Of a stretch of 64,000 bases of DNA, positions 40,016 to 46,836 are shown in pieces. Origin of the DNA: Promicromonospora iranensis (GTDB lineage Bacteria; Actinomycetota; Actinomycetes; Actinomycetales; Cellulomonadaceae); contig NZ_JAJQQP010000005.1 of the NCBI RefSeq assembly GCF_028994805.1, forward strand, positions 248,001-312,000, in the 5' to 3' direction. How positions within the stretch are numbered: the stretch's first letter is position 1; each line of letters begins with the position of its first letter. A program made the translations under genes and the position numbers. The notes under the pieces were generated by a model. The model saw only the letters and a program-made list of their open reading frames with translations, was not told where the DNA came from and made no database searches.

Positions 40016-40900
40016 ATGGCATCGAACCACCTCACCGTTCCGGAGCTGTTCGCGGCCCGGACCGTCGAACGGGAGCAGGACGCGGGGCAGGCCTGGATCG
40101 ACCAGCTTCCGCAGCTGGCCGAGCAGCTCCTGTGCGAGTGGGGACTGACGCTCGTCGGCCCGCCGGTCGCCGGCAACGTCGGCCTGGTGTGGGAGGTGCG
40201 GCGTGCGGACGGGACCCCGGCCGTGCTGAAGGTGAGCTGGCGCGACGCGGAGACGAGGAACGAGGCGGAGGCCCTGCGCCGGTGGGACGGGCGGGGCGCG
40301 GTGCGGCTCATCCAGGCGTCCGGCGACGCGGGTGCCCTGCTGATGGAACGCCTCGATGCGGGGACGAGCTTGTCCGCCGCCCCGATGAGCGTCGCGATCA
40401 CCGCCGCGGCCGAGCTCCTGCGCGTCCTGCACGTCCCGGAGTGGTCGGGCTTCGACGAGGCGCTGGAGCTGGAGTCGAGGATGACGGCGCCCGGGGAGAA
40501 GTATCGTGAGCGTCTCCGCGAGCTGCGTGCCGACGTCGAGCACGCCTTCCGAAGCGCGCCCCATGTGCTGCTCCACGGTGACTTCCACTACGAGAACGTG
40601 CTCCGGCGGGGCGCTACCTGGAAGGCCATCGATCCCAAGCCGACCCACGGCCCGGGCGAGTGGGACCTGCTGCCGCTCCTGAGGAATCGCTTCGACGAGC
40701 TCCCGCGCGGTCCGCGGCAGCCGGCCGGGATACGGGACCGCCTCGACTCCCTGATCGCCGCCACCGGGTCGGACCCTGGCCGGGCCTACCTGTTCGCCCG
40801 CTACCGGGCGCTGCGGGACGCGGACTATGCCGACCGGGTCGGCGACACCGGGTTCGGGGCCGTGGCGACCGCCATCGCCGAGGCCGTGTCCCGGTCTTGA
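40016..40900 (+). CDS. APH(6)/hydroxyurea-type aminoglycoside phosphotransferase family kinase
   Basis: A 294-residue kinase-fold protein matching the streptomycin 6-kinase / hydroxyurea phosphotransferase family. It has WGLTLVGPPVAGNVGLVWEV (nucleotide loop), AVLKVSWRD (catalytic Lys), LLHGDFHYENVLRR (catalytic Asp/Asn loop) and AIDPKPTHGPGEWDL (metal Asp). It may phosphorylate an aminoglycoside or another small hydroxylated compound; resistance cannot be inferred from sequence alone. ATG 40016 follows AAGGAG closely. Monocistronic. Confidence 0.88.
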   Translation: MASNHLTVPELFAARTVEREQDAGQAWIDQLPQLAEQLLCEWGLTLVGPPVAGNVGLVWEVRRADGTPAVLKVSWRDAETRNEAEALRRWDGRGAVRLIQASGDAGALLMERLDAGTSLSAAPMSVAITAAAELLRVLHVPEWSGFDEALELESRMTAPGEKYRERLRELRADVEHAFRSAPHVLLHGDFHYENVLRRGATWKAIDPKPTHGPGEWDLLPLLRNRFDELPRGPRQPAGIRDRLDSLIAATGSDPGRAYLFARYRALRDADYADRVGDTGFGAVATAIAEAVSRS

Positions 40901-41056
40901 CCGGGCGGCATCGGAACACCGCTCCGCGCACCGAACCCGACACCGCGTCCGACGAGTTTGTGACGAACTCGGGGCAGCTTCCGTCTCAGAGGTGTCGCTG
41001 GTCCTAGCGGCTCGCGCCCAGGGGGCGCGACGCGAGCAGAGCGGAAGGAACACATC

Positions 41057-41503
41057 ATGGCAAACGTCACTGGTACGCCGGGGCCGAACGCGCAGGGGGA
41101 GTCGGCACGGACGTCTGGGCTCGACGGTACGACGACCATCGGGGACGGCGTCGTCGCGAAGATCGCTGGTATCGCCGCACGGGAGGTCAGCGGTGTGTAC
41201 GCGCTGGGTGGAGGTGCCGCGCGCATGGTCGGCTCGATCCGCGACGCGCTGAACTCGACGGACCTCACGCAGGGGATCGCCGTCGAGGTGGGCGAGAAGC
41301 AGGTCGCCGTCGACGTGACGATCGTCGCGGAGTACCCGGTCGCGCTGCAGAAGGTCTCGGACGAGGTGCGCACGGCGGTGTACCAGGCGATGCACGACCT
41401 GGTCGGCATGGAGGTCGCCGAGGTGAACGTCACCGTCAACGACGTGCACCTGCCCTCGGACGACGACCAGGAGGGTGAGCAGCAGGAGGGACGGGTCCGG
41501 TGA
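41057..41503 (+). CDS. Asp23/Gls24 family envelope stress response protein
   Basis: A 148-residue Asp23/Gls24 protein, the family of abundant membrane-associated cell-envelope stress proteins. The core runs TTIGDGVVAKIAGIAAREVS, then GVYALGGG, IAVEVGEKQVAVDVTIVAEY and VNVTVNDVHL, with a disordered acidic tail. ATG 41057 has GGAAGG eight bases upstream. It heads a five-gene run joined by ATGA/GTGA overlaps that includes small membrane proteins and a shorter Asp23-like protein, an Amaf/AmaP-like cluster. Confidence 0.92.
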   Translation: MANVTGTPGPNAQGESARTSGLDGTTTIGDGVVAKIAGIAAREVSGVYALGGGAARMVGSIRDALNSTDLTQGIAVEVGEKQVAVDVTIVAEYPVALQKVSDEVRTAVYQAMHDLVGMEVAEVNVTVNDVHLPSDDDQEGEQQEGRVR

Positions 41504-41691
41504 GCGCCACGGTGACCGGCGCGGCGGCCGGCGCGGTGCTCGCGCTGACCTGGATCGTGCTCGGCTTCGGGGCGTTCGTCCTCGTGGCGGTGGCGATGCT
41601 GATCGGTGCCACGGTGGGCCGCGCGGCCGACGGCAGGATGGACGTCCGGGCGCTCGCGGATGCCGTCCGAGGCCGGCGTTCGTCGTCATGA
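41500..41691 (+). CDS. Small membrane protein of the Asp23 cluster (DUF2273-like)
   Basis: A 63-residue protein with two closely spaced hydrophobic stretches (AAAGAVLALTWIVLGFGAFV and LVAVAMLIGATVG) followed by a basic/acidic tail ending RGRRSSS. Such tiny membrane proteins sit beside asp23 genes and may anchor the Asp23 protein. The GTG at 41500 overlaps the preceding stop (GTGA). Confidence 0.75.
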   Translation: MSATVTGAAAGAVLALTWIVLGFGAFVLVAVAMLIGATVGRAADGRMDVRALADAVRGRRSSS

Positions 41692-42050
41692 CCACCGCCG
41701 ACCGCGCTGGGGTGGCGGGGCAGGCGGTCCCAGAAGCGACGGTGCCCGGCAGGACACGGATCAGCGCCCGCGCCCTGGAGCATCTCGCGGTCCGTCTGGT
41801 CGGAGACGCGGCACAGGTCGCCCACCGGGAGATCTCCGTGCGGCTCGCGGACGCCGGCGGCGCGCTGAGGCTGTCGGTGACCGTGCCGGTCGCCCTCGGC
41901 GGCGGCGCCGCGGGGTCGATCCCGGACCGTGGGGAACGTGTCCGCCGTCGCCTGGTCGAGGGCATGCGTGATCTCGCGGGGAGGCGGGTCGACGTCGTCG
42001 ACCTGCGCTATTCGGGAGTGCGGCGGGTCGTGGGAAGGAGGGTGCGGTGA
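41688..42050 (+). CDS. Short Asp23/Gls24-like protein
   Basis: A 120-residue protein with an Asp23-like beta-alpha layout: RISARALEHLAVRLVGDAAQ, then EISVRLADAGGALRLSVTVP, and VDVVDLRYSGVRR. It lacks the full N-terminal motif of the first cluster member and is therefore a divergent paralogue. ATG 41688 overlaps the upstream stop (ATGA). It probably associates with the neighbouring membrane proteins. Confidence 0.7.
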   Translation: MTTADRAGVAGQAVPEATVPGRTRISARALEHLAVRLVGDAAQVAHREISVRLADAGGALRLSVTVPVALGGGAAGSIPDRGERVRRRLVEGMRDLAGRRVDVVDLRYSGVRRVVGRRVR

Positions 42051-42613
42051 AGAACGAGCAAGCCGTCTACCGCAGGGTCCTGCGGCGCGAGACGCACGCG
42101 TCGCGCACGAGCGCCGCGGTGGTCACCGCGTCGGTCGTGATCGTGCTGCTGGCCGGAGTGGTCGCGGCGGGGGTGTGGTGGCTCGCTGTGCCGGGGGACC
42201 GGGACACTCTCGACGGCTGGTTCGCCTCGGCGTCGGCGTCGGCCGACGACCCCGGGATCCGCACGGCTGCCGGGGTCGTCGCGCTGGGCCTCGCCGTGCT
42301 GCTGCTGGCGCTCGCGCTGCTGCCCGGTCGGCTCCCACGCCGGGCGCGCAGCACCGACCGCGTGGCGCTGCTCGTCGACGACGGGGTCCTCGCCGACGCG
42401 GTCGCCGACGCCGTGGCGGCACGCTGCGGTGTCGACCCGCGGCAGGTCTCGGCCACGGTCGGACGGCGGCGCACCGCAGTACGCGTGACGCCGATCAGCG
42501 GCGTCCCGGTCGACCGGGACGCGGCGGCGGACTCCGCCGCGTCCGCCGTCGCCGCCCTCGGGTTCTCCACCACACCCGAGCTGACCGTCGCACGACAGGG
42601 GGTGGTCTCGTGA
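42047..42613 (+). CDS. DUF6286-like membrane protein of the Asp23 cluster
   Basis: A 188-residue protein with a cytosolic basic start (YRRVLRRETHASRTSAAVV), two transmembrane helices (about 25-45 and 72-92), and a C-terminal soluble domain of about 85 residues with an alternating strand-helix pattern. GTG 42047 follows GGAGGGTGCG and overlaps the previous stop (GTGA). DUF6286 proteins occur beside asp23 genes in actinobacteria and are presumed partners; no enzymatic motif is present. Confidence 0.7.
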   Translation: MKNEQAVYRRVLRRETHASRTSAAVVTASVVIVLLAGVVAAGVWWLAVPGDRDTLDGWFASASASADDPGIRTAAGVVALGLAVLLLALALLPGRLPRRARSTDRVALLVDDGVLADAVADAVAARCGVDPRQVSATVGRRRTAVRVTPISGVPVDRDAAADSAASAVAALGFSTTPELTVARQGVVS

Positions 42614-43233
42614 GACCGAACAGCAGAGTCCTGAACCGAGGGCTGCTCCTGCTGTGCGGGCTGCTCCTCGCGGCTGCCGGCACGGCGGCGGTCCTCGCCG
42701 GCACTCCGTCGTCGTGGGCGGAGTCGTGGCGGGCGGGCTCGTGGTCGACTCCGGACCTCGTCGGGAGCGGGCTGTCCCGGGCCAGAGAGACGGTGGCGAC
42801 GCTGCCGTCGGTCGGGGGTGTGCCCGGCGGGGTGCTCGTCGGGCTGGGCCTGGCCGCCCTGCTGGCCTCGCTCCTGGTCTGGTTCGTCTGCACCCGGCAC
42901 CGCGGCGGGACGACGACGGTGCTTCGTCTGGAGGCCGACGGCGGACGCACCGCCGTCGACCGGAACGTGGCCGAAGCGCTGCTCTCCGGGGAGCTCGAGA
43001 AGCGACCCGACGTGCTCTCGGCCCGTACCCGGGTGTACCGGGTGCGGGGGACCGAGACGATCGACCTGGCGGTGACGGTGCGCCGGGGCGCGGACCTCGC
43101 CCGGGTGCTGGCCGCGGCGGAGGAGGCGGTGGACGCCTGGGACGCGCTCGCCGGTGTCCGGGTCCCCGTGGTGGTCCGGTTGTCCGACCGGAGCTGGTCG
43201 GACGGGCTCCGCGCGTCCGACCGGGTGCGGTGA
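42610..43233 (+). CDS. AmaP-like membrane anchor protein of the Asp23 cluster
   Basis: A 207-residue protein with a first hydrophobic helix near 9-31 (LLLLCGLLLAAAGTAAVLAG), an extracytoplasmic loop, a second helix near 73-95, and a cytosolic C-terminal alpha/beta domain (TTVLRLEADGGRTAVDR, then VRGTETIDLAVTVRR). This two-helix plus soluble-domain layout is that of AmaP, which in Firmicutes anchors Asp23 to the membrane. The homology is structural rather than clear at sequence level. GTG 42610 overlaps the upstream stop (GTGA). End of the operon. Confidence 0.7.
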   Translation: MRPNSRVLNRGLLLLCGLLLAAAGTAAVLAGTPSSWAESWRAGSWSTPDLVGSGLSRARETVATLPSVGGVPGGVLVGLGLAALLASLLVWFVCTRHRGGTTTVLRLEADGGRTAVDRNVAEALLSGELEKRPDVLSARTRVYRVRGTETIDLAVTVRRGADLARVLAAAEEAVDAWDALAGVRVPVVVRLSDRSWSDGLRASDRVR

Positions 43234-43373
43234 TCCGTGGATCCGGGCGCGAAGAGTCCCGGTGGGAAGAATCCGACGCAGAACGGGCGACTGAGGGGCG
43301 AAAGTTTCGGACTGAGGGGAGGCTGAGAGGGCGCGCGACGAAGAGCACGAACCGAGAGCGAGAAATACGGATG

Positions 43374-43397
43374 GTTTCGGTCACCCAGCTCGGGGAC
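43374..43397 (+). promoter_or_regulatory. Weak SigB-like promoter candidate for the CsbD gene
   Basis: GTTT followed after 14 bases by GGGGAC resembles the actinobacterial stress sigma consensus GTTT-N14-16-GGGTAC with one mismatch, 30 bases before the CsbD start. CsbD genes are often stress-sigma controlled, but this match is weak. Confidence 0.25.
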
Positions 43398-43426
43398 CGG
43401 GGAGAAGTACGGGAAAGGAAGAGCTC

Positions 43427-43600
43427 ATGGGTGCAGAGGACAAGATCAGGAACGCGGCGGACAAGGCGGTCGGCAAGGTGAAGGAGGCCGTCGGCAAGGT
43501 CACCGACGACGAGCAGCTCGCCGCCGAGGGCAAGACCGACCAGTCGAAGGCCGACCTGAAGGGCGCGGCCGAGAACGTCAAGGACGCCTTCAAGAAGTGA
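43427..43600 (+). CDS. CsbD family stress protein
   Basis: A 57-residue hydrophilic protein of the CsbD family, general-stress-induced in Bacillus and actinobacteria, molecular role unknown. MGAEDKIRNAADKAVGKVKE is followed by EAVGKVTDDEQLAAEGK and a final helix ending NVKDAFKK. ATG 43427 follows GGGAAAGGAAG, a clear ribosome binding site. A strong hairpin follows within ten bases. Confidence 0.93.
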   Translation: MGAEDKIRNAADKAVGKVKEAVGKVTDDEQLAAEGKTDQSKADLKGAAENVKDAFKK

Positions 43601-43606
43601 CCGGTC

Positions 43607-43640
43607 CCGGGGCGAGGCCGCGATCGTGGCCTCGCCCCGG
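43607..43640 (+). terminator. Hairpin terminator after csbD
   Basis: A perfect 13-bp stem CCGGGGCGAGGCC / GGCCTCGCCCCGG has the loop GCGATCGT. No T-run follows. Confidence 0.75.
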
Positions 43641-43696
43641 CCTCGGAACCTCGCGGCGGCTCTCGGCGACACAGGAACACGTGAAGGGGGCTGAGG

Positions 43697-44293
43697 ATGG
43701 GTGCTGACGACCTTCACGCTTCTCTCGACCAGGCCGATCTCGACCAGGCGGACCTCGACCAGGCGGACGACCACATCGTCGCCGGTCGCGCGGCAGACGG
43801 CGACGTCGCAGCGTTCGCGGTGCTCGTCCGCCGGTACACACCGATGATGCGCGCGTACACCCGACGGATCCTGAACTCGAGCACCGACGTCGACGACATC
43901 GTGCAGGAGGCGTTCGTGACCGCCTGGCAGCGGCTCCCCGAGCTGGCGGACCCGGGCAAGGTGAAGAGCTGGTTGATGCGGGTCGCCAGCCGTAAGGCGG
44001 TGGACCGCATCCGCGCGAGCAGGCCGCAGGTCAGCGTCGACCACATCGAGCACCCTGCCCCCGAGCACGCTTCACCGCCCCGGGTGACCGAGACGCGCGC
44101 CAGGGTCGACGCCCTCAGCGACGCTCTCCAGCGGCTCGCCGACCCCGAGCGGGAATGCTGGGTGCTTCGTGAGCTGGGCGGATACTCCTACCACGAGATC
44201 GCCGAGGAGATGGACGTCTCGGTGAGCACCGTCAGAGGACTGCTGGCGCGTGCGCGCAAGCACATCATCGTACGGATGGAGGAGTGGCGATGA
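43697..44293 (+). CDS. ECF-type RNA polymerase sigma factor
   Basis: A 198-residue group IV sigma factor. Sigma region 2 is visible (AFAVLVRRYTPMMRAYTRRI, VDDIVQEAFVTAWQRLPEL) and region 4 as well (ALQRLADPERECWVLRELGG, YSYHEIAEEMDVSVSTVRGL, ARKHIIVRM). The first 30 residues are unusual: three Leu-Asp-Gln-Ala-Asp repeats encoded by 15-bp DNA repeats. ATG 43697 has GGGGGCTGAGG upstream. It is translationally coupled to a Gls24-domain protein that is a candidate anti-sigma factor, and sits in an envelope-stress island. Confidence 0.92.
   Translation: MGADDLHASLDQADLDQADLDQADDHIVAGRAADGDVAAFAVLVRRYTPMMRAYTRRILNSSTDVDDIVQEAFVTAWQRLPELADPGKVKSWLMRVASRKAVDRIRASRPQVSVDHIEHPAPEHASPPRVTETRARVDALSDALQRLADPERECWVLRELGGYSYHEIAEEMDVSVSTVRGLLARARKHIIVRMEEWR
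43724..43768 (+). repeat. Three in-frame 15-bp tandem repeats at the 5' end of the ECF sigma gene
   Basis: The unit CTCGACCAGGCGGAC (first copy ends CCGAT) is repeated three times without gap and encodes Leu-Asp-Gln-Ala-Asp each time. Confidence 0.9.
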
Positions 44294-44895
44294 CATCCGG
44301 GGACGACAGACCAGACCCTCGTCCGCTCGAGCTCGATCCTGAGCACCTCGATGGGCACACCATCGACGAGCTCACGGACTACCTGGAGGCGGGACGGGTC
44401 CCGGCCGATCCCTCGATCGATGGTTCGCCGGCCTGCCGGCTCGCGCTCGACGCGCTCGAACGGCTGCATGGGCTCACCCCCGACCTGATCGCCGCCGACA
44501 CGGCTGCGGAGCCGGAGGCCGACGACGGCTGGGTACGCCGTGTCCTCGGCGGTATCGCGCTCGACGCGCACGCGGGACGACGCATCCCCGTGCCGACGTC
44601 GGTGCCGCACGCCGACCTGGGCATCACGGAAGGTGCGGTCCGCGGCCTCGTGCGTGCTGCCGAGAACGCGGTGCCCGGCCTGGTGGTCGGACGGTGCCGG
44701 TTCGACGGCGACGTGACGCGGCCCGGCGCGCCCGTCACGGTCCTGGTCGACGTGAGCGTTCCCTACGGTCGGCCGATCCCGCCCCTGGTCGAGCAGCTGC
44801 GCGGCGAGATCGCCGGGCGACTCGCGCTGCACACGGAGCTGAACGTCACCGCCGTCGACATCACGGTCCGTGACGTGCGGCCGTACGGCTCATGA
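44290..44895 (+). CDS. Gls24-domain protein with possible anti-sigma N-terminal half
   Basis: A 201-residue soluble protein. The N-terminal ~100 residues are helical and acidic (HTIDELTDYLEAGRVPAD, CRLALDALERLHGL), with one Cys and no clear zinc-binding anti-sigma motif. The C-terminal ~95 residues follow the Asp23/Gls24 plan (ITEGAVRGLVRAAENAVPGL, APVTVLVDVSVPYG, LNVTAVDITVRDV). ATG 44290 overlaps the ECF sigma stop (ATGA) with GGAGGAG just upstream, exactly where cognate anti-sigma factors are encoded. Hence an anti-sigma role is plausible but unproven. Confidence 0.7.
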   Translation: MTSGDDRPDPRPLELDPEHLDGHTIDELTDYLEAGRVPADPSIDGSPACRLALDALERLHGLTPDLIAADTAAEPEADDGWVRRVLGGIALDAHAGRRIPVPTSVPHADLGITEGAVRGLVRAAENAVPGLVVGRCRFDGDVTRPGAPVTVLVDVSVPYGRPIPPLVEQLRGEIAGRLALHTELNVTAVDITVRDVRPYGS

Positions 44896-44912
44896 ATCGA
44901 GGAGGCTCACCG

Positions 44913-45293
44913 ATGAACACGGCACACAGCGCGGGGGCGGTACGAGGCGTGGCGATCGCTGCCGAGATCGAGGATGCCCTCCGTTCGGTCCCCGGCGTCT
45001 GCGATCTCTACCGGTCCGGGTCGTTAGTCGCGAACGTGGCCGACGCGGGCGCGCGTCGCCTGGGTCTGCGCGACGACGACACGCCGCTGGTCCTGGTCCA
45101 GGACGCCGGGGCCGGGTTGCGGGTCGACGCCGCCATGGGGGTCCACATCTCGTCGGGCGCCACCGCGACGATGCTCGCGGCGCACCGCGCGGTCCGTGAC
45201 CTGCTGACCGGACACGAGCTGCGCGACGCGCACATCGTCCTGACGGTGGTCCACGTCGACGACTCCCCGAGCCCGGCCCACGGCGCGACCTGA
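44913..45293 (+). CDS. Small Asp23/Gls24-like protein downstream of the ECF sigma operon
   Basis: A 126-residue protein with an Asp23-like second half: IAAEIEDALRSVPGVCDLYR, then LVLVQDAGAGLRVDAAMGV and HIVLTVVHVDDSPSPA. It lacks any membrane segment. ATG 44913 is chosen over 44892 because GAGGAGGCTCACCG gives a strong ribosome binding site. Last gene of the sigma/Gls24 operon. Confidence 0.7.
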   Translation: MNTAHSAGAVRGVAIAAEIEDALRSVPGVCDLYRSGSLVANVADAGARRLGLRDDDTPLVLVQDAGAGLRVDAAMGVHISSGATATMLAAHRAVRDLLTGHELRDAHIVLTVVHVDDSPSPAHGAT

Positions 45294-45296
45294 CGG

Positions 45297-45328
45297 CGGC
45301 GCGTTCTCACCGCGGCGAGAACGCGCCG
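45297..45328. terminator. Bidirectional terminator hairpin
   Basis: A perfect 12-bp stem CGGCGCGTTCTC / GAGAACGCGCCG has an eight-base loop and is extended outward by TGACGG/CCGTCA with a small bulge. It lies between convergent genes. Confidence 0.8.
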
Positions 45329-45333
45329 GCCCG

Positions 45334-46836
45334 TCAGGAGACGTCGGCCTTCTTCGCCGACGCGAGGCGTGTCGCCTCGGCGAACTCCGCGCGGACCGCC
45401 TCCGACGGCGCCGGCGTGAGCAGGCTGACGACGATCGCGACGAGCCCGCCGAGCACGAAGCCGGGGACCAGCTCGTAGAGCGTGTCCGCGAGCGGCGACC
45501 GGCCCCAGGCGAACGCGACGACGGCGCCGACCACCATGCCGGACAGCGCACCCCAGCTCGTCAGTCGGCGCCAGTACAGGCTCAGGAGCACGATCGGGCC
45601 GAACGCGGCGCCGAATCCCGCCCAGGCGAACCCGACCAGGTCCAGGATCGTGTCGGTGCGGCCGAACGCGATGACCGCGGCGACCACGGCGACGAGCAGG
45701 ACGCCGACGCGGCCCAGCATCACCTCGGTGCGGGAGGTCATCGCGCGGCCCGTGATCTTGACCAGGTCCTCGACCAGTGCCGAGGACGAGACGATGAGCT
45801 GCGACGAGATCGTCGACATGATCGCGGCGAGGACGGCGGCCAGGACCAGGCCGGCGATCAGCGGGTGGAACAGCGCCTGGGACAGGAACAGGAACACCGT
45901 CTCCGGGTTCTCCAGCGTCTCGCCGTTGATGTTGACGTAGGCGACGCCGATCAGGCCGGTGATGATCGCGCCGACCGCGGTGACGATCATCCAGCTGATG
46001 CCGATGCGGCGCCCCGCGACGGCGTCCTGCGGGGAACGCATGGCCATGAAGCGCACGATGATGTGCGGCTGGCCGAAGTAGCCGAGGCCCCACGCGGCGG
46101 CCGAGATGACGCCGGTGACGGTGGCGCCCGCCAGGAGCGAGAGGTGGTTCGCCGCGTCGCTGGTCTCCGCGGCGAGGATGCCCTCCCGGATCGGGCCCCA
46201 GCCGCCCAGCTCGACGAAGGCCACGATGGGCACCGCGACCAGGGCGAGCAGCATCAGGATGCCCTGCGCGACGTCGGTCCAGGTGGCGCCGAGGAACCCG
46301 CCGAACAGCGTGTAGGCGAGCGTCACGCCGCCCACCACCCAGATGCCTGTCGTGTAGTCGAACCCGAACGAGCCCTCGAAGAACGTGCCGCCGGCCACCA
46401 TGCCGGAGGAGACGTAGAAGGTGAAGAACACGAGGATGATCGCGCCCGACGCGACACGCAGGAAGCGCGACGTGTCGTGCAGCCGGTTCTCGAAGAAGCT
46501 CGGGATGGTGATCGAGTTCCGCGCGATCTCGGTGTAGGCGCGCAGGCGCGGCGCGACGAACTTCCAGTTGAGCCAGGCGCCGATCGTCAGGCCGATGGCG
46601 ATCCAGGCCTCGACGAGCCCGCTGACGTAGATGGCGCCGGGCAGGCCCATCAGGAGCCAGCCGGACATGTCGGATGCACCGGCGCTGAGCGCCGCCACAC
46701 CGGGGCTGAGCCGCCGGCCACCCAGCATGTAGCCGTCGAGGTTGTCTTCCGTGCGGCGGAACGCCGCGTAGCCGATACCCAGCATCAGCGCCAGGTACGC
46801 GACGATCGCGATCGTCTTCCAGGCCTCGGGGGTCAT
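45334..46836 (-). CDS. putP: Sodium/proline symporter
   Basis: A 500-residue SSS-family sodium:solute symporter with about 13 membrane helices. PutP-like landmarks are DNLDGYMLGGRRLSPGVAAL and SAGASDMSGWLLMGLPGAIY near the N-terminus, the WLNWKFVAPRLRAYTE loop, and MSTISSQLIVSSSALVEDL. It imports L-proline with Na+, for nutrition or osmoprotection. ATG 46836 has GGAGCATCTCC upstream. Divergent from the membrane protein gene at 47092. Confidence 0.92.
   Translation of the reverse strand: MTPEAWKTIAIVAYLALMLGIGYAAFRRTEDNLDGYMLGGRRLSPGVAALSAGASDMSGWLLMGLPGAIYVSGLVEAWIAIGLTIGAWLNWKFVAPRLRAYTEIARNSITIPSFFENRLHDTSRFLRVASGAIILVFFTFYVSSGMVAGGTFFEGSFGFDYTTGIWVVGGVTLAYTLFGGFLGATWTDVAQGILMLLALVAVPIVAFVELGGWGPIREGILAAETSDAANHLSLLAGATVTGVISAAAWGLGYFGQPHIIVRFMAMRSPQDAVAGRRIGISWMIVTAVGAIITGLIGVAYVNINGETLENPETVFLFLSQALFHPLIAGLVLAAVLAAIMSTISSQLIVSSSALVEDLVKITGRAMTSRTEVMLGRVGVLLVAVVAAVIAFGRTDTILDLVGFAWAGFGAAFGPIVLLSLYWRRLTSWGALSGMVVGAVVAFAWGRSPLADTLYELVPGFVLGGLVAIVVSLLTPAPSEAVRAEFAEATRLASAKKADVS

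Follow-up and report, generated by a model that had tools for sequence, protein, structure and literature searches.

A stretch of 64,000 nucleotides from Promicromonospora iranensis (NCBI RefSeq assembly GCF_028994805.1, contig NZ_JAJQQP010000005.1, positions 248,001 to 312,000; hereafter the window, with positions counted from its first nucleotide) encodes an extracytoplasmic function (ECF) sigma factor directly followed by a soluble protein, here called the partner, whose C-terminal half resembles Asp23 (Gls24). The pair lies downstream of a run of Asp23-, DUF2273-, AmaP-like and CsbD-type genes headed by a promoter-like element, and is followed by a third conserved gene (Table 1). We consider it likely that the whole constitutes a self-regulated Asp23 module, in which the N-half of the translationally coupled partner is a decayed anti-sigma domain and the Asp23 C-half provides the input. 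The overlap of the sigma stop with the partner start, remarked on in the initial annotation, is an ATGA at 44290-44293, and the same -4 overlap is found in 144 of 163 relatives.

The relatives were collected by searching with the partner, and then with profiles of it, in overlapping sets of 39, 150, 394, 249, 150 and 396 genomes; counts cover the matches listed or fetched, and 230 loci were fetched, best-first. Among these loci an ECF sigma gene immediately precedes each of the 163 unique matches that span both halves, a figure that carries the caveat that the search profiles were themselves built from sigma-coupled proteins. The spacing is -4 in 144, -10 in 15, +13 in two and +43 in two. In contrast, 128 of the 132 matches confined to the Asp23 half have no sigma gene within reach on their own strand. 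The four that were flagged are a fragment in L068 (443 nt), L057 (577 nt, behind a coupled partner) and the short coupled partners of L023 and L030. Three matches were set apart as 'other', namely the N-fragment of L068, L173 (without sigma) and L020 (coupled). A named collection, partly located by a pattern in a stretch of the N-half, was reduced to the best 80 of 191 relatives, which include Promicromonospora, Microbacterium and Leucobacter. Sigma lies at -4 in all 80 kept loci (78 by script; L289 and L252 by tblastn), row L306 at 1921 having been left out of the sigma count as an Asp23 gene. With all 163 unique full-length relatives arranged alike, we do not attribute the coupling to chance. 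The initial annotation had stated that a Gls24 gene found without the sigma gene in most relatives would speak against a functional pair; no match with both halves lacked the sigma gene, and the sole case resembling an exception is a remnant, L173, which is discussed below. We also note that in L068 (G647:C131, a draft genome) the partner is broken by an in-frame stop, with sigma upstream at -4. Many genomes of family f17 have two to six matches to the partner profile, Asp23-only matches included, and some (G355, G661) have two full-length ones; parallel sigma/Asp23 pairs may thus coexist there and need insulation.

The C-half of the partner matches the Pfam family Asp23 (PF03780) with an E value of 6.7e-6 and 26.9 bits, just below the 28-bit cut-off. 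Asp23 is also matched by 34 of 37 members of the partner family at E up to 0.5, the best at 9.4e-16. For the window protein itself, the proposed Asp23/Gls24 likeness of this half thus stays slightly below threshold. In fold comparison the C-half resembles the C-terminal domains of cation diffusion facilitator (CDF) transporters (Z 9.5, root-mean-square deviation 2.4, 80 residues of 111-200), and searches with the whole model picked up the C-half alone.

The N-half is acidic, with 22 Asp/Glu against 9 Lys/Arg in residues 1-98. The AlphaFold2 model of the partner (mean predicted local distance difference test score, pLDDT, 79) places helices at 17-20, 25-33, 41-44, 47-71 and 79-94, and the N-half modelled alone is confidently helical (pLDDT 89), in agreement with the acidic, helical N-half first described. 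The accompanying statement that the partner has no zinc motif needs qualification: no intact motif is present in the window, but the site is recognisably decayed. Relatives show the pattern LPCG...H-x3-C-x2-C. Where RsrA-like zinc-associated anti-sigma (ZAS) proteins have HxxxCxxC and an upstream Cys, the window partner has D21, S42, S46 and C49, so that a single cysteine remains. Of 166 rows, 42 have CHCC here and 42 have the window type DSSC, the remainder being mixed. Removal of repeats left 233 sigma-partner pairs. A quick tree built from the 233 sigma proteins leaves the ligand columns out, and 66 of its 229 inner branches are well supported. The four ligand states can be placed on it with 5 changes, against a mean of 51.9 when shuffled. 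Among 79 window-type rows, from a sampling that was aided by pattern, L20, G22, L28, Y31, C49 and further positions do not vary.

It is through the zinc-bearing relatives that the N-half can be connected with known anti-sigma factors. Comparison of zinc-less (window-clade) and zinc-bearing N-halves with hhalign gave a probability of 98.5 and an E value of 3e-15. A profile of 37 partners searched against the PDB identified 3hug_B (E 7.2e-4), over HxxxCxxC; we take 3hug to be the SigL/RslA complex of M. tuberculosis. The corresponding search with a profile of zinc-bearing N-halves (41 of 42, L200 being left off) gave 3hug_B at 7.4e-4, RsiW (5wuq) at 0.026 and DdvA (8rlz) at 0.089. The NCBIfam model 'anti-sigma factor' matches 11 of the 41 (best 2.8e-4) and the RsrA model four (best 7.1e-4). 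Judged by this likeness, loss of the zinc site from a class I anti-sigma domain (ASDI) is the most likely origin of the N-half. The original proposal that the partner is an anti-sigma factor acting through its N-half stands as a prediction, given a consistent, though sub-threshold, family likeness together with near-obligate coupling to sigma.

In class I systems, according to PMC7406223, the anti-sigma factor holds sigma region 4 with helix 1 and region 2 with helix 4, the latter contact including an aromatic residue (W/Y) against a proline; zinc-bearing and zinc-free domains are intermixed in the family. Mean-field coupling was calculated for the 233 pairs (effective number 158) with 28 within-cluster shuffles as control. 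The strongest inter-protein coupling joins partner residue 36 to sigma residue 158, and of the nine blocks compared, partner residues 17-60 against region 4 stand furthest above the shuffles (z 8.4). W81 of the partner is present in 185 of 233 pairs and P49 of sigma in 158; an acid is found at partner position 33 in 191, and R or K at sigma position 158 in 227. As the published two-contact pattern was not reproduced, we regard these covariation data as compatible with an interaction, and nothing beyond.

A search of both strands of the 64-kb window for TGTGAC-N15-19-CGTC, in which CGTC is presumably the ECF -10 element, gave one match, at 40959, ahead of the first Asp23 gene. The regions upstream of that gene were compared for 69 of 81 loci, the window included. 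Of the 69, 56 contain TGTGAC-N15-18-CGTC, whereas each of 10 sets of shuffled regions gave none. Once redundant regions were removed, 60 of 63 had GTGAC-N17-CGTC; the most frequent pair among the shuffles reached 4-6. Across 13 genomes of the genus TTGTGAC-N17-CGTC has 11 matches, compared with 3 for the reversed control. Each of the six pair-bearing genomes (6/6) has one of these 11 immediately ahead of the Asp23 operon, and the remaining five lie elsewhere (two in G001, one in G002 and two in G003, which lacks the pair). Partner, Asp23 gene, sigma orthologue (E up to 1e-40) and operon-side promoter are found in the same six of the 13 genomes; one of the seven genomes without the pair is only 83% complete. 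The window genome has 12 matches to TGTGAC-N17-CGTC versus 6 for the reversed control, so a wider regulon is no more than possible. Among zinc-less relatives GTGAC-N17-CGTC is present in 67 of 111 loci, 450-1000 nt before the partner start and mostly pointing away from sigma. The promoter of the zinc-bearing clade is less sure, because other word pairs are slightly commoner there. A scan of 40800-45500 for the sigma-70 consensus found no promoter.

Two other elements upstream of sigma were considered. GGAA[CTA]-N15-18-CG[AT] occurs in 43 of 165 regions; ten mono-shuffles gave 7-24 and the opposite strand gave 14. It was rejected because 18 of its 45 hits, more than in any other group, lie no further than 50 nt from sigma residue 26 and fall in the beginning of the coding sequence. 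Microbacterium loci (for example L241, L270 and L303) have a conserved element upstream of sigma, approximately CGATCCG-N15-TCCGAA (26 hits), some 117 nt ahead of the codon that corresponds to sigma residue 26. The corresponding ATCCG-N15-CGAA is absent from the upstream regions of the window and present in 3 of the 69 Asp23 upstream regions, and was set aside.

Table 1. Features of the sigma/partner locus in the Promicromonospora iranensis window.
Feature	Position	Strand	Basis or remark
Promoter-like TGTGAC-N17-CGTC ahead of Asp23 operon	40959..40985	+	Single window match, conserved motif
Canonical Asp23 protein, first gene of operon	41057..41503	+	Pfam Asp23, 92 bits
DUF2273 small membrane protein	41500..41691	+	Pfam 28.5 bits (cut-off 25.4); hydropathy peak 2.67
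Small soluble protein, conserved neighbour	41688..42050	+	Faint AmaP trace only (NCBIfam E 0.11)
Membrane protein, faint AmaP trace	42047..42613	+	Hydropathy peak 2.79; NCBIfam AmaP E 0.029
AmaP-like membrane protein	42613..43233	+	NCBIfam AmaP E 5.7e-5, 23 bits (cut-off 55); hydropathy peak 2.58
CsbD stress protein	43427..43600	+	Pfam CsbD 59.6 bits; found in 50/81 loci
ECF sigma factor, 198 aa	43697..44293	+	Pfam Sigma70_r2 5.2e-17, Sigma70_r4_2 2.7e-15
ATGA start/stop overlap, translational coupling	44290..44293	+	Partner ATG at 44290 overlaps sigma stop
Partner, predicted soluble anti-sigma factor, 201 aa	44290..44895	+	N-half probably a decayed class I anti-sigma domain; C-half Asp23-like
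Zinc-site remains, codons D21, S42, S46, C49	44350..44436	+	C, H, C, C at these positions in relatives
Helix 4 of partner N-half, residues 79-94	44524..44571	+	Models; position 81 is W in 185/233 rows
Asp23-like C-half of partner	44578..44892	+	Pfam, sub-threshold; fold comparison
Conserved third protein, faint Asp23-like trace	44913..45293	+	77/78 loci; without family hit

Intergenic gaps measure 193 nt before csbD, 96 nt before sigma and 17 nt before the third gene, and no terminator-like site was found on the + strand of 40800-45500. Hydrophobic segments are present in the products of the genes starting at 41500, 42047 and 42613, and none is present in the partner. A homologue of the small soluble protein (41688..42050) lies near the sigma/partner pair in 33 of 81 loci, the window counted. 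LDQAD is repeated three times at the N-terminus of sigma (43724-43768), whereas L231, a 95% relative, has it once. An open reading frame of 90-200 aa is found within 150 nt 3′ of the partner at all 78 loci examined, 77 of these being homologous, and by tblastn alone 70 of 81 loci have a homologue in the vicinity of the pair. The third protein (44913-45293) has no Pfam or NCBIfam match, and hhalign aligns it to the partner C-half with a probability of 16% (P 0.0016). What was annotated as a second Gls24-like gene is therefore real and conserved, but its likeness to Asp23 is weak and it matches no family.

PMC8999054 describes ECF286 and ECF292 as having a soluble protein of the Asp23 family encoded next to them, predicted to act as the anti-sigma factor, and notes that experimental data are lacking. 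The window sigma factor likewise adjoins a soluble Asp23-family protein and may belong to one of the two groups or to neither. The suggestion that this anti-sigma architecture is new does not survive: it had already been predicted in print, and because PMC8999054 names both groups we regard the locus as a further case of a predicted, uncharacterised kind. Zinc decay, the promoter and inheritance as a module are window features that the available text on ECF286/ECF292 does not contain. What we add is the probable descent from an anti-sigma domain, the lost zinc site and the promoter; the primary 2021 ECF classification may already contain them. A literature search, in texts available in part (PMC9769785, PMC7406223 and PMC8103513), found no further link between Asp23 and ECF anti-sigma factors.

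With the class I systems RseA, RskA, RsiW and ChrR, as set out in the available text of PMC7406223, the partner shares its position beside an ECF sigma gene and, as far as the models suggest, helices 1-4, and zinc-free members exist in that class also. The zinc-bearing relatives align to RslA and RsiW, and the helix-4 Trp, the region-2 Pro, the acid at 33 and the basic residue at sigma 158 are common in the partner family. Unlike the systems compared, the window partner has an Asp23-like C-half, has no transmembrane segment and has largely lost its zinc ligands; helices 1-3 are gone in three relatives. RsrA is the zinc-containing redox anti-sigma factor of SigR, with the ligand pattern C..HxxxCxxC. 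Zinc-bearing relatives of the partner similarly have a Cys followed by H-x3-C-x2-C, and four of 41 match the RsrA model weakly, whereas the window partner lacks three of the four ligands. Asp23, AmaP and DUF2273 make up an envelope operon of Firmicutes. The window resembles it in having Asp23, DUF2273 and AmaP-like genes side by side and differs in that an ECF sigma factor and a predicted anti-sigma factor join the set under a putative common promoter, and in AmaP-like scores that are below cut-off.

If the locus is indeed a self-regulated module, the ECF sigma factor would most likely recognise TGTGAC-N17-CGTC (40959-40985) and would transcribe the Asp23-DUF2273-AmaP-like-CsbD run leading into its own gene. 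The coupled partner would be made in step with sigma and would sequester it through the anti-sigma half; by analogy with class I, helix 1 would block sigma region 4 and helix 4, carrying W81, region 2. With its zinc ligands lost, the window clade is unlikely to use a thiol or zinc switch, and the input would come from the Asp23 C-half in place of zinc/thiol chemistry. As S. aureus Asp23 is membrane-tethered (PMC9769785, in the part available) and the run includes membrane genes, the C-half plausibly docks on the Asp23/AmaP membrane layer made by the module, and release of sigma would follow the state of that layer. The sequences themselves show the gene order, the coupling, the likeness of the N-half to its zinc-bearing relatives, the loss of zinc, the conserved promoter and the shared occurrence in the genus; we infer binding, inhibition and promoter use, and the signal is the least certain step. 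A more specific version, possible but rather doubtful, is that a protein-lattice sensor replaced zinc/thiol sensing: the Asp23 domain would co-assemble with the tethered Asp23/AmaP layer of the operon, and sigma would read the completeness or strain of that layer.

Several observations weigh against the partner being such an anti-sigma factor and the locus such a module. The window partner by itself matches no anti-sigma model in Pfam or NCBIfam, and the NCBIfam matches of its relatives are weak (20.9 bits against a cut-off of 100 where shown). Pfam zf-HC2 is found in 2 of the 41 zinc-bearing N-halves (best 0.013), compared with 7 of 41 for the unrelated DUF2946 (best 0.0014), and in the PDB search generic zinc fingers (2m0d at 0.0064, 2i13 at 0.0072) score better than RsiW. 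Fold searches with the N-half returned no anti-sigma structure (Foldseek 11 hits, best E 1.6; VIA best Z 3.0), yet these searches are uninformative and the absence is not evidence against the assignment. The couplings are not specific: all blocks exceed the shuffles, the Asp23 half included (z 3.4-6.6 for the others); in finer blocks helix 1 couples more strongly to regions 2.1-2.2 (z 6.5) than to region 4 (z 5.1), and helix 4 has no preference between region 2 (z 2.1) and region 4 (z 2.0). W81 and P49 occur together in 138 of 233 pairs, not far above the 125 expected from column frequencies. The strict TGTGAC promoter is found in 0 of 42 zinc-bearing loci (mostly with about 1.5 kb of flank), of which 16 have GTGAC-N16-TGTC. 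Given the gaps of 193 and 96 nt before csbD and sigma, one transcript is an inference. L173 (G682:C1:910900-912700) retains helix 4 together with the Asp23 domain (46% identity, counted from residue 81), with no sigma or N-half recognised in 1.8 kb; it is possibly an orphan left after loss of the sigma gene. Finally, the partners of L020, L023 and L030, from other genera of the same family, are short (about 150 aa) and coupled to sigma at -4 or -10, and they have lost helices 1-3 while keeping a DDGWV-type helix and the Asp23 domain.

These points bear on three other explanations. The partner could be a mere structural protein of the Asp23 family and a target of sigma, which would then be controlled transcriptionally or by another protein. 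Such a role would suit a neighbourhood rich in Asp23-type genes, and the C-half match is the only family hit of the window partner itself. We think it unlikely, as Asp23 proteins bearing the N-half are coupled to sigma in 163 of 163 cases while only 4 of 132 lacking it were flagged, and as relatives of the N-half link it to known anti-sigma domains by likeness. The three short partners raise a different issue. Because they keep only helix 4 and the Asp23 domain, these parts appear to matter most in at least one lineage, which suggests that the window partner, too, might inhibit through them, with its decayed helices 1-3 vestigial; that couplings of the Asp23 half also exceed the shuffles would fit. 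The invariance of helix 1-3 positions over the 79 window-type rows, with the pattern-aided sampling mentioned above, and the location of the top coupling excess in residues 17-60 with region 4 make this very unlikely. A redox or zinc switch of the RsrA kind, to which the C..HxxxCxxC of zinc-bearing relatives might point, is extremely unlikely for the window partner: three of four ligand positions are D, S and S in the window and in much of its clade, and we reject the redox reading on the lost ligands. Anti-sigma control through a decayed class I domain, with the Asp23 half as input, is thus the explanation we prefer.

The promoter at 40959-40985, together with residues E33, W81 and C49 of the partner and P49 and R158 of sigma, makes the questions of control and of zinc directly testable. 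The passage from a full zinc site through a decayed site to a missing domain provides a natural series for asking what zinc does in anti-sigma factors. If the lattice reading were true, the sigma system would be a homeostat for an envelope-associated protein coat, and loss of the zinc site and, in three relatives, of helices 1-3 as well would be stages of a handover. Asp23 proteins are widespread envelope-stress proteins. To our knowledge their molecular function is not settled, and control of an Asp23 operon by an Asp23-domain anti-sigma factor, if true, would open a direct genetic route to finding out what Asp23 senses.

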